From contig CP107049.1 in NCBI GenBank assembly GCA_025736915.1, positions 1,612,001-1,676,000 of the forward strand: a stretch of DNA of 64,000 bases, written 5' to 3'. Of this stretch, positions 26,850 to 30,901 are shown piece by piece. The notes beneath the pieces are model-generated. The model saw nothing but the letters and a program-made list of their open reading frames with translations, had not been told where the DNA came from and ran no database searches. The stretch comes from Acinetobacter nosocomialis. GTDB lineage: Bacteria > Pseudomonadota > Gammaproteobacteria > Pseudomonadales > Moraxellaceae. The position numbers and the translations under genes were made by a program. Position 1 is the stretch's first letter. Every line of letters starts with the position of its first letter.

Positions 26850-26903
26850 ATCCAAAATCCCAATAAAGATAAATGAGATTTTAAATGAATTTCATTGACA
26901 AAC

Positions 26904-26922
26904 GATAATAATTATCAATAAT
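26904..26922. promoter_or_regulatory. Fur-box-like site upstream of bfd
   Basis: The 19 bp match the GATAATGATAATCATTATC consensus at 14 positions and lie about 36 bp before the bfd start codon. A second ATTATC/GATAAT-like stretch continues to about 26933, so overlapping boxes are possible. Iron repression of bfd is the expected logic. Confidence 0.6.
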
Positions 26923-26957
26923 ATCAATTATCGCATTTATATTTGGGGATCACTCCC

Positions 26958-27152
26958 ATGTACGTTTGCTTGTGTCGTGGCATTACCGATCAGGATATTA
27001 AAGACGCTATTGAAAATGGCGCTGAAAGCTATCGTGAAATTCGCGATTTGCTTGATCTCGGTACTTGCTGTGGACGCTGTGCACCAGAAGCACGTGCTAT
27101 TATTAGTGAAGAATTAGCAGAAATTGCTGCACGCATTTCTGTAGCTGCATAA
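26958..27152 (+). CDS. bfd: Bacterioferritin-associated ferredoxin
   Basis: A 64-residue [2Fe-2S] protein. Starts MYVCLCRGITDQDI and has the second cysteine pair in GTCCGRCAPEAR, giving the C-x-C ... C-x2-C ligand set of the BFD fold. In Pseudomonas, Bfd docks on bacterioferritin over the heme and passes electrons inward to reduce and release stored iron. ATG 26958 follows a GGGGAT sequence. A Fur-like site upstream and bfr downstream support induction when iron is low. A strong terminator separates it from bfr, so the two can be controlled separately. Confidence 0.93.
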   Translation: MYVCLCRGITDQDIKDAIENGAESYREIRDLLDLGTCCGRCAPEARAIISEELAEIAARISVAA

Positions 27153-27396: not shown

Positions 27397-27861
27397 ATGA
27401 AAGGCAATCGTGATGTGATTAATCAGCTTAACCAAGTGCTGTATCATCATTTAACTGCAATTAACCAATACTTTTTACACTCTCGCATGTTTAATGACTG
27501 GGGAATTGAACAACTCGGTTCCGCTGAATATAAAGAATCAATTCGTCAAATGAAGCATGCAGATAAAATTATTGAACGTATCTTATTTTTAGAAGGACTT
27601 CCGAATCTTCAACATCTAGGTAAATTGTATATTGGTCAGCATACAGAAGAAGTTCTGCAATGTGATATTCGCAAAGTGAAAGAAAACATTGAAGCTATTC
27701 AAAAAGCAGTTGCATTAGCTGAAACAGAACAAGACTATGTAACACGTGATTTGGTACAAGAAATTTTAGAAAAAGAAGAAGAATATTGGGATTGGTTAGA
27801 TACTCAAATTGACCTTATCGGTAGCGTTGGTATCGAAAACTATATCCAGAGCCAAATGTAA
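27397..27861 (+). CDS. bfr: Bacterioferritin subunit, heme-ligand type with defective ferroxidase site
   Basis: A 154-residue ferritin-like subunit clearly homologous to Bfr throughout (AINQYFLHSRMF, KHADKIIERILFLEGLPNLQ). Counting against E. coli Bfr, heme ligand Met52 is kept. Of the six ferroxidase ligands, only His54 and Glu127 remain: Glu18 is His, Glu51 is Gln, Glu94 is Val and His130 is Tyr. The subunit should bind heme between dimers and accept electrons from Bfd but not oxidise iron well alone. Such split roles are known in heteropolymeric bacterioferritins of Pseudomonas putida and Neisseria, so a second, ferroxidase-competent subunit is expected elsewhere. A 7-bp inverted repeat precedes the start. 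Confidence 0.92.
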   Translation: MKGNRDVINQLNQVLYHHLTAINQYFLHSRMFNDWGIEQLGSAEYKESIRQMKHADKIIERILFLEGLPNLQHLGKLYIGQHTEEVLQCDIRKVKENIEAIQKAVALAETEQDYVTRDLVQEILEKEEEYWDWLDTQIDLIGSVGIENYIQSQM

Positions 27862-27870
27862 TCTTTCATA

Positions 27871-27905
27871 AAAAAATCCCCTTGAAAACAAGGGGATTTT
27901 TTTAT
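27871..27905. terminator. Bidirectional terminator between bfr and pglL-like gene
   Basis: AAATCCCCTTG and CAAGGGGATTT arms with A and T runs on both sides; its right part overlaps the last codons of the convergent glycosyltransferase gene. Confidence 0.9.
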
Positions 27906-29530
27906 TTATCTTTTAGTAATTGCGTCAGTGTTATTTGCTGTCCATAAAGGTGCTGCGAAATAAATATTTGTTGCTCTGCTTGATCTACTTTTCCATTATA
28001 AGCAAGTAACTGAGCATATTTACGCAAATTATAAGGGGTTGCTTTGTTCTTCACAAAATTTCCCCATTGAACTAATTCTGCTTCAGATAAAGTTACATTA
28101 GGATTAAGTGCAATCCATTTTAAACGCTGCTCAAATTGGGTTAGTACAAAAATCTGGTCACTTCCCATGAGCTCAGCATTTGGCTGCTTATTTTTAAATA
28201 GTAAATTACTATTCATGACATAAACATTGTAGTCGCGCCAAATTGCGATCATAAGTATTAAGCTGACGCCCCATATTAAACGCAGAAGTTGTTTACTTAG
28301 TACAAAGCCTTTCAGTATAGGAGTCTGTGCTTGAATTACACCCAATAAAAAGCCACAAGTCAGCAAGAAATAAGCATAACGCTGCGGAAACTCCAACATG
28401 GCGTGAATAAGCACAGTACAGACCATCATCACTGCGATAATCGAGATTGTTTCTTTTGCTTGTTGATTTAGCCAAAATAACCAACATGTAAAGTAAGCAA
28501 TAATCACTGTACCAAGTGGAATACCATTCCAAATAATAAGATCTAGCAACACATTATGAGCGCTGGTCGTCCACTCCGTCGTTGGAAAAAGAGCATAAGC
28601 AGACATTTGAGCAACACTGGTTTGATTCCACCCATATCCCAACCAAGGATGTTGCTGTACAGCGATTAACATTTGCGTCCAAATATTAAAACGCAGATAA
28701 CCCGAGCTTGCCCGTTCAGCCAAGCTACTCGCCTGAGTTATATCTGTATGTGACCATGCCTCAATTAAGCTTGTAAGGAATGGTAAAACTAAGCCCGCCA
28801 TGAGGAAAAAGCCAGCACACCATAATAAGCCTTGAAACACCCCAAAACGCTTAGGTTTATTAAATTGCTTAATAGCCCAATAAATGAGTAAAAATGGAAA
28901 AACAACCCAAGAGGTTCGCGATTGGCTAAGGACAACTGCAAATAAAATAGTTAGCGCTGATGGCAAGAGCAACCAAACCGATGCTTTGTTCTTTTCATAT
29001 AAATATAAGCATCCTAATAATCCCATTATGAGAAAGGTTGCCATATTATTCGGTTGCCCAAAGTTACCGTACGGACGGTTACCAATTAAATGCAACATAT
29101 GAGCAAAATGTGTATCAATATTTAACCACTGACAAACTGCAATAAGACTAGTTGCAACCGAGACAATAACAGTAAGTAAACTAAACCCTGTAAAAATTTG
29201 GTCTCGCTGCTGTTGATCTAATGACAGGTTATAGCCAGCCACAACCATAAACCAAAAGCCTAACAAGTAAAGTGAACTTAACAAAGCTGTACTAAAATCG
29301 AAAATTAGACTAAAAGCCCACTGCACCACTGGAATTAAAATAAATGGCAATAGTAATAATTGTGCCCGTGGAATTTTTATATTTTGATAAAAAAGTGCAG
29401 CTAAGACACTTAGACCTGCCGCAAAGGTACTCATTTCGCTAGAAAACATCACCCAAGGGTTATAGTGAAATGGTGATAACCACGCAAAACCTAACAGGAT
29501 TGCTGCGAGGAACAGAAAGAATACTTGCAT
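27902..29530 (-). CDS. pglL: PglL/TfpO-type pilin O-oligosaccharyltransferase (Wzy_C family)
   Basis: A 542-residue membrane protein with roughly a dozen hydrophobic helices and a soluble C-terminal part. The PglL-type motif is seen in NRPYGNFGQPNNMATFL, followed by the Wzy_C periplasmic loop with HPWLGYGWNQTS and SAHNVLLDLIIWNG. Such enzymes transfer a lipid-linked glycan to serine in the periplasm. It is the third gene behind the major pilin and pilin accessory gene, so the pilin is the probable acceptor, as for PglL-ComP in A. baylyi. The pilin here ends in KN, not the C-terminal serine that TfpO uses, so an internal site is expected. Confidence 0.88.
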   Translation of the reverse strand: MQVFFLFLAAILLGFAWLSPFHYNPWVMFSSEMSTFAAGLSVLAALFYQNIKIPRAQLLLLPFILIPVVQWAFSLIFDFSTALLSSLYLLGFWFMVVAGYNLSLDQQQRDQIFTGFSLLTVIVSVATSLIAVCQWLNIDTHFAHMLHLIGNRPYGNFGQPNNMATFLIMGLLGCLYLYEKNKASVWLLLPSALTILFAVVLSQSRTSWVVFPFLLIYWAIKQFNKPKRFGVFQGLLWCAGFFLMAGLVLPFLTSLIEAWSHTDITQASSLAERASSGYLRFNIWTQMLIAVQQHPWLGYGWNQTSVAQMSAYALFPTTEWTTSAHNVLLDLIIWNGIPLGTVIIAYFTCWLFWLNQQAKETISIIAVMMVCTVLIHAMLEFPQRYAYFLLTCGFLLGVIQAQTPILKGFVLSKQLLRLIWGVSLILMIAIWRDYNVYVMNSNLLFKNKQPNAELMGSDQIFVLTQFEQRLKWIALNPNVTLSEAELVQWGNFVKNKATPYNLRKYAQLLAYNGKVDQAEQQIFISQHLYGQQITLTQLLKDK

Positions 29531-29580
29531 AGTGACAGGTTATAGGTCAAAAACTTGAGAAGGATTATACATGGAAGAAA

Positions 29581-29615
29581 GTGAGAAGAATTAGCTTGTA
29601 TATGTATCTTCTCAC
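29581..29615 (-). terminator. Hairpin after the TfpX/TfpZ-like gene
   Basis: GTGAGAAGA/TCTTCTCAC 9-bp arms with a 17-nt loop, starting 14 bp past the stop on the minus strand and followed by a modest T-rich stretch (TTTCTTCC). Partial terminator or mRNA-stabilising hairpin. Confidence 0.5.
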
Positions 29616-29628
29616 AAGAGATGCTAAC

Positions 29629-30339
29629 TTATTTCCATGGTCTCAAGTCTACAATTTTAACCACTTGAGCTGAGTTTTTATCCATTAAAACAACCATATC
29701 TACAGCATTGGCTTTTAAAGGAACCCATGCATTCGCTTCTGGATATTTTCTTAAAATATTTTTTACTTGTTGTTTAGAGTTAAATTTTTCAAGTATTTCT
29801 AGACCTTGTAAATGTTGTAAGAGTTGTGGTTTTATTTGACTTAATTTTTTATAGTTTTTGGGATCTTGTGCTAAAGCTATTCCACTGAATAACTCTTGGA
29901 ACATTTCTTTTTGCTTTAATTGAGGAACATTAGAATATTGGATACCAACAAATTTTGGGCCTAAAAATGAAGATTGATATGATTTAGAAACCACTTCATT
30001 ATCACGTATTAATTCAAATTGATCGACACTGTATACTACCCATACAGGTCTGCCTTTAAATACATGATAACAGCCAAAAAGAAACGCACTAATTTGAAAA
30101 ATGCAAATAATAGCCAAATCAAACTTTAGAGTTTTCTTACCTTCTTTATAAATAAACAAACCTAAAAAGGGCCCAACAATAACATCGACTAAAATTAGTA
30201 AAAATAATATATGTTCCAATCCAGTTGCTTTATGCAAAGGAGCGGGATACCACATAAGAAAAATACAACAAAGCAATAAACTAATGACTATAAGTGAAAA
30301 AGTTATATGTACTATAAAGAACTTAATACGTTTACTCAT
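29629..30339 (-). CDS. TfpX/TfpZ-family type IV pilin accessory protein
   Basis: A 236-residue inner-membrane protein. Helix 1 spans residues 8-31 and ends at the MWYP motif, followed by LHKATG, then helices with VDVIVGPFLGLFIY and LKFDLAIICIFQISAFLFG, and a periplasmic C-terminal domain opening at GRPVWVVYSVDQFELI. This layout is that of the TfpX/TfpZ accessory proteins encoded next to certain pilin alleles in Pseudomonas and relatives, where they affect assembly or surface display of that pilin. It sits between the pilin and glycosyltransferase genes, behind a terminator that should keep it expressed far below the pilin. Confidence 0.85.
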   Translation of the reverse strand: MSKRIKFFIVHITFSLIVISLLLCCIFLMWYPAPLHKATGLEHILFLLILVDVIVGPFLGLFIYKEGKKTLKFDLAIICIFQISAFLFGCYHVFKGRPVWVVYSVDQFELIRDNEVVSKSYQSSFLGPKFVGIQYSNVPQLKQKEMFQELFSGIALAQDPKNYKKLSQIKPQLLQHLQGLEILEKFNSKQQVKNILRKYPEANAWVPLKANAVDMVVLMDKNSAQVVKIVDLRPWK

Positions 30340-30352
30340 ATGTAATCCAAAT

Positions 30353-30380
30353 AAAAAGCTGGAATAAATCCAGCTTTTTA
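30353..30380. terminator. Major pilin terminator (partial read-through expected)
   Basis: AAAAAGCTGGA/TCCAGCTTTTT stem 15 bp past the pilin stop, functional on both strands. The downstream accessory and glycosyltransferase genes lack an obvious promoter of their own in the 55-bp gap, so read-through is likely. Confidence 0.8.
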
Positions 30381-30394
30381 CTTTAAAAAATTAA

Positions 30395-30901
30395 TTAGTT
30401 TTTACAAGAACCTGGAAGGTATTTAGCATCAATACTTGTAATATTTGTGGCTGCAGCTAAAGTAACACCATCTGGTTTTGCAGCATTACCACAAACCCAA
30501 GTAACGTTTTTAGCTGTATCTGTACCAGGAATAAGAGACAATACTTTAGCTGCTAAAGCACTAGAGTTCGCTTTATTTCCGTAAGTAATATTAACACCAC
30601 CGTTAGCTACATCAATTTGTGATACATAATTACCTTTATAATCTGTATTTGTTCCACCATCACAGTCTTTAGTCGCATTTTTACCACAAACCGCTGCTTT
30701 AATATCAGTAGGCCATGAACCAACATCTGTATAATAGTCATTTACTGCAGTTTTAACACCGCCTGCCATGTTAAGACCTTCAGTCACTTGTGAGCGAACT
30801 GTATAATCCTGATAAGCTGGAATCGCGATCGCTGCCAAAATACCAATAATCGCAACCACGATCATAAGTTCAATTAATGTAAAACCTTTTTGTGCATTCA
30901 T
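30395..30901 (-). CDS. pilA: Major type IV pilin (PilA/ComP)
   Basis: A 168-residue prepilin: leader MNAQKG, then FTLIELMIVVAIIGILAAIAIPAYQDYTVRSQV, the archetypal type IVa N-terminus with Glu5. The globular domain has two cysteine pairs: one in the alpha-beta loop (AVCGKNATKDC) and one closing the C-terminal D-loop (WVCGN ... GSCKN). It ends in Asn rather than the C-terminal Ser found in TfpO-glycosylated pilins. Pilin alleles of this locus vary between strains and travel with matching accessory genes; this allele goes with a TfpX/TfpZ-type protein and a PglL-like enzyme. A sigma-54 promoter lies 63 bp upstream, consistent with PilS/PilR control. Confidence 0.93.
   Translation of the reverse strand: MNAQKGFTLIELMIVVAIIGILAAIAIPAYQDYTVRSQVTEGLNMAGGVKTAVNDYYTDVGSWPTDIKAAVCGKNATKDCDGGTNTDYKGNYVSQIDVANGGVNITYGNKANSSALAAKVLSLIPGTDTAKNVTWVCGNAAKPDGVTLAAATNITSIDAKYLPGSCKN

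Follow-up and report, generated by a model that had tools for sequence, protein, structure and literature searches.

A bacterioferritin of Acinetobacter nosocomialis with most ferroxidase ligands lost: probable heme-binding subunit of a two-component cage with dispersed genes

Yao et al. (2024, Sci Rep 14:18242) reportedly described the bacterioferritin of Acinetobacter baumannii as a Bfr/Ftn heteropolymer with the structure PDB 9BTS. Here we compare with this cage, and with others of its kind, the bfr gene located at positions 27397 to 27861 on the plus strand of a 64,000-nucleotide stretch of Acinetobacter nosocomialis DNA (the window; positions are those of the window unless a contig or locus is named). 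Its 154-residue open reading frame (ORF) appears to encode a heme-binding bacterioferritin subunit in which most of the ferroxidase ligands have been lost. Bfr isolated from A. baumannii was found to combine Ftn dimers and Bfr dimers in one heteropolymer, with a Kd of 5.6 μM for the binding of the ferredoxin Bfd, and the Bfr-Bfd contact is being pursued as a drug target (PMC12261321). Heme is carried by the Bfr homodimers of this cage, which lack ferroxidase centres; such centres are present in the Ftn homodimers (PMC13136788). Ftn makes up about 39% of the cage and Bfr about 61% (PMC12120770), and the dimers are distributed randomly (PMC13366587). The bacterioferritin of Pseudomonas aeruginosa, made of FtnA and BfrB, is also a heteropolymer (PMC8945002), and in Magnetospirillum gryphiswaldense (PMC6529640, 2019) and Shewanella (PMC12120770, 2025) the subunits were reported to share the work in the same manner. 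The Magnetospirillum heme subunit alone oxidises iron only slightly above the control (PMC6529640).

We propose, with a probability of about 0.96, that the product of bfr in the window is the heme-binding member of a hetero-bacterioferritin of 24 subunits, in which iron is oxidised by an Ftn subunit encoded at a dispersed locus. The ORF begins with the ATG at 27397, its stop codon ends at 27861, and its product passed the curated cut-off of the NCBIfam bacterioferritin model TIGR00754 (209.8 bits against 125.55). The MAFFT alignment with the Bfr of E. coli K-12 (NC_000913.3) gave His18, Gln51, Met52, His54, Val94, Glu127, and Tyr130 in the positions where the reference has Glu18, Glu51, Met52, His54, Glu94, Glu127, and His130. 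Every substitution listed in the original prediction, which had been made from the letters alone, was thus confirmed: Met52, the axial heme ligand, is kept, and His54 and Glu127 are all that is left of the six ferroxidase ligands. Considering that the heme-binding subunit of a canonical homo-bacterioferritin has the six ligands, and that only two of six remain here, we did not file this protein in that class. A misalignment near residue 94 was considered and rejected, the alignment between the window and E. coli proteins being gap-free in that region.

The Pfam ferritin model PF00210 had two matches in the same genome (100% complete, 2 contigs), bfr and one other. The second gene, ftn, lies at C1:2784145-2784606 (L001:1480-1941), on the same contig C1 as bfr and about 1.14 Mb from it. 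By alignment its product has Glu18, Glu51, Ala52, His54, the equivalent of Glu94, Glu127, and His130 (EEAHEEH), that is, the six ferroxidase ligands without Met52; near residue 94 it is offset by one position, where plain counting gives Tyr and the alignment gives Glu. It also scored above the TIGR00754 cut-off (150.7 bits). In a PDB sequence search the Bfr of the window was identical in 153 of 154 residues to chain 9bts_A (Bacterioferritin) of the A. baumannii structure 9BTS, with the sole difference at residue 153, just before the C-terminus, and the Ftn was identical in 154 of 154 residues to chain 9bts_a (Ferritin) of the same entry. The genome therefore holds, as in a hetero-bacterioferritin, a second subunit free of the heme ligand and complete in ferroxidase ligands. 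Taking into account the distance between the two genes and the presence of bfd near one of them, the arrangement corresponds to the dispersed-gene (DSD) type, in which the two subunit genes are scattered on the chromosome and bfd lies near one of them (PMC12120770).

These results bear out the expectation that a ligand-complete subunit lacking Met52 would be encoded elsewhere in the genome, and the absence of any second Bfr or ferritin gene, which had been named as the finding that would speak against it, is not the case. That the two subunits co-assemble agrees with both proteins being chains of 9BTS and with the heteropolymer reported for A. baumannii. The proposal that the subunit encoded beside bfd is specialised for heme binding and electron entry has its counterpart in the heme-bearing Bfr dimers without a full ferroxidase centre (PMC13136788) and in the binding of Bfd (PMC12261321), both described for A. 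baumannii; we infer that the cage of the present strain would behave in the same way.

In the proposed working of the cage, Ftn homodimers, with six ligands and no Met52, would oxidise Fe2+ and build up the mineral core. Bfr homodimers would hold the heme between two Met52 residues, dock the ferredoxin Bfd, take its electrons, and reduce the Fe3+ of the core to Fe2+, which would be released; they are expected not to oxidise iron. The decay of the ferroxidase site may be due to relaxed selection once the partner took over the oxidation. Two points weigh against this proposal. Section 3.1 of PMC13136788 counts three of the six ferroxidase ligands as conserved in A. baumannii Bfr, against the two given by our alignment. 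Besides, P. aeruginosa BfrB, which has an Ftn partner, and the Bfr of three genomes surveyed below are intact, so a partner does not force the decay.

The substitutions were followed in 80 related loci, out of 141 relatives found among genome contigs; all 80 are from Acinetobacter apart from one Moraxellaceae bacterium. Gln51, Met52, Val94, and Glu127 did not vary (80/80), position 18 was His in 79 and Gln in one, position 54 was His in 79 and Asp in one, and position 130 was Tyr in 74, Trp in five, and Phe in one. The full seven-letter pattern of these positions, HQMHVEY, was present in 73 of the 80 loci, and the remaining seven had Trp130 (five), Phe130 (one), or Gln18 together with Asp54 (one). 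HQMHVEY is also the pattern in the Bfr of the A. baylyi type strain (L065). Judged by these relatives, the window belongs to the baumannii group of Acinetobacter. Because the pattern is so constant, the substitutions are neither chance nor a sequencing slip. The same constancy can be read in favour of another explanation, in which Bfr would be a working homopolymer and His18, His54, Glu127, and Tyr130 would form a different functional metal site. We regard it as very improbable: position 18 is Gln in locus L079, in genome G090, and in three g10 genomes, position 130 is Trp or Phe in the six loci mentioned, and the Bfr dimers of A. baumannii are reported to have no full ferroxidase centre (PMC13136788). 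Since both positions vary among relatives, the idea of a new metal site created by His18 and Tyr130, also part of the original prediction, found poor support. That Bfr and Ftn would form separate homopolymeric cages within one cell, the older assumption according to PMC13136788 and one that would suit genes about 1.14 Mb apart, is scarcely credible, given that both chains are present in 9BTS by sequence match and that both subunits were present in the crystallised Bfr obtained from cells of A. baumannii (PMC12261321, PMC13366587, PMC12120770).

The hetero-bacterioferritin reading was extended to a survey of 68 genomes with a Met52 Bfr, 40 from Moraxellaceae and 28 further genomes of the class. 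Of the 199 family genomes examined, PF00210 matched in 191 and not in the other 8, and 40 were scored; the scoring excluded ten Acinetobacter genomes in which Ftn was the sole locus retrieved, and in G007 and G013 no Bfr was scored, other ferritin-like proteins being all that was found. In the class, 77 genomes were examined, TIGR00754 matched above its cut-off in 29, and 28 were scored, with the window genome set aside; matches under this cut-off were not taken in, which could leave a distant partner unnoticed in these genomes. The absence of Ftn in G018, G027, G034, G037, G042, and G050 rests on a single PF00210 match each. The gene of G207, with two overlapping partial matches, looks broken near its start, which makes its Lys18 unreliable. 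G231 was reassigned from lone Bfr to partner-bearing because its tandem protein falls in the partner clade. In this genome (L214) a Met52 Bfr with one of six ligands adjoins a ligand-complete tandem partner that also has Met52, unlike the other partners scored.

A decayed Bfr was present in 33 of the 68 genomes, all 33 with a ligand-complete partner; in 32 the partner was not found and Bfr kept at least five ligands, and three combined a partner with an intact Bfr. Among the 40 Moraxellaceae, Ftn was found in 25, with a decayed Bfr in 24 (two keep one ligand, 19 two, and three three) and an intact one in G011; in the 15 where Ftn was not found, Bfr had six ligands in 12 and five in three. The 28 class genomes comprised 17 with no partner over the cut-off and five or six ligands, nine in which a ligand-complete partner stands in tandem with a decayed Bfr, and two (G206, G266) with a partner and an intact Bfr. 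With E. coli Bfr added, the 69 rows used for the trees were 33 without partner and intact, 33 with partner and decayed, three with partner and intact, and none without partner and decayed. A ferritin of a different kind, which E. coli has as well, was not counted as a partner.

The decayed patterns differ among groups. The three g10 genomes and the Acinetobacter genome G090 have QQMHAEY, the other Acinetobacter genomes have HQMHVEY or close variants of it, g7, g9, and g11 have SEMWENY, SEMWENH, or AEMWESH, and g15 has QQMYENW. The ftn and bfr genes lie within about 0.5 kb of each other in the eight scored genomes of g7, g9, g11, and g15, and far apart or on different contigs in Acinetobacter and g10. 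Section 2.6 of PMC12120770 states that the heme-binding subunits of hetero-bacterioferritins resemble those of homo-bacterioferritins, the helix-2 motif apart; the strongly decayed heme subunits of this survey do not fit that likeness. In G011 (L121, L088) an intact Bfr coexists with an Ftn whose place in the tree is with the sequences of g10, another genus, inside the Acinetobacter group (100/99, four-row group). This Ftn is possibly a recent transfer, seen at an early stage before the decay of the ferroxidase site.

Considering these counts, it seems rather probable that a heme-binding Bfr can lose its ferroxidase site only where a ligand-complete partner is encoded and that the loss is then nearly one-way, so that the heme subunit would become a dedicated part for electron entry and the cage obligately two-component. 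In the tree of heme-type rows from which the ligand columns had been removed, three changes of the decayed label were required, at least two of them forced by starred branches, and a single clade of decayed rows was not rejected (p-AU 0.373). Three independent pairs stood on starred branches, with a median p of 0.5 in the sign test (range 0.5 to 1). The tree with ligand columns and partners gave two changes, and one origin in 48% of 200 bootstrap trees. Thus 33 of 33 does not stand for 33 independent events and, given the shared ancestry, the survey counts are no independent statistical test; with independent pairs too few for a test, the rule is a pattern and not a proven law. In the parts of the literature on these cages that were searched, no statement of the rule was found.

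The residue observation is correct, but both the cage and the way its subunits share the work were published before. Since the cage of A. baumannii dates from 2024 and its Bfr-Bfd contact is already pursued as a drug target (PMC12261321), we regard the finding as a correct rediscovery. The residue pattern would show how the cage works, one subunit type loading iron and the other releasing it. What is added here is a possible sequence rule leading from a decayed heme subunit to its partner. If it is true, the loss of Bfr ferroxidase ligands would predict a hetero-bacterioferritin, a two-component cage, from the genome sequence alone.

Upstream of bfr, on the plus strand and separated from it by 244 bases, lies bfd, the gene of the bacterioferritin-associated ferredoxin (26958 to 27152, ATG start). 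Its product scored 58.1 bits with PF04324 (cut-off 26) and 54.3 bits with the NCBIfam bfd model, under the cut-off of 75. A bfd-like motif precedes bfr in 78 of the 80 related loci, and one of the misses (L066) has just 760 bases upstream. The ATG at 26958 gives a Met-Tyr N-terminus, the one said to dock on Bfr; an alternative TTG start at 26943 would add five residues, MGITP, as in the UniProt form mentioned in PMC13136788. According to PMC12261321, the Bfr of A. baumannii and that of P. aeruginosa have an identical site for Bfd docking and for inhibitors. Residue 78 is Tyr in the Bfr of the window, Leu in P. aeruginosa, and Asn in E. coli, residue 81 is Gln in the first and Glu in the other two, and Tyr78 and Gln81 are kept in 80 of the 80 related loci; the site is thus not the same in Acinetobacter and Pseudomonas residue for residue.

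After bfr, on the plus strand, there is a terminator-like hairpin with a 17-pair stem and a T tract (27868 to 27905); such sites number five in the whole stretch, compared with 0.7 in shuffles. Promoter-like sites were not enriched (5 against 6.2 in shuffles). One of them, at 26895 to 26922, overlaps an AT-rich dyad upstream of bfd, GATAATAATTATC (26904 to 26916, plus strand), which we take to resemble a Fur box. Allowing up to one mismatch, the dyad had one match in the window against 0.30 expected, and it is a weak signal because 27 of 100 shuffles also had at least one match. Convergent to bfr, the minus strand of 27902 to 30901 encodes in the ORF list a 542-residue membrane protein, a 236-residue protein, and a 168-residue type IV pilin-like protein, presumably a pilin with its O-glycosylation genes.

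By comparison with the described cages, the one proposed here resembles P. aeruginosa FtnA/BfrB, where heme-bearing Bfr dimers and heme-free Ftn dimers share one 24-mer (PMC8945002), and differs from it in that none of the six ferroxidase ligands is missing from BfrB (PMC12120770, section 2.4) whereas four were lost here. In the Shewanella oneidensis cage SoBfr12, the subunit SoBfr2 has Val94 and Lys46 in common with the Bfr of the window; however, it keeps Glu18 and has Asp51, and the Shewanella genes are in tandem (PMC12120770). The likeness to Bfr1/Bfr2 of Magnetospirillum gryphiswaldense lies in a heme subunit with mutated ferroxidase residues and a partner without Met52, although the two Magnetospirillum genes are 11 nucleotides apart in an operon and those of the window genome are dispersed (PMC6529640).
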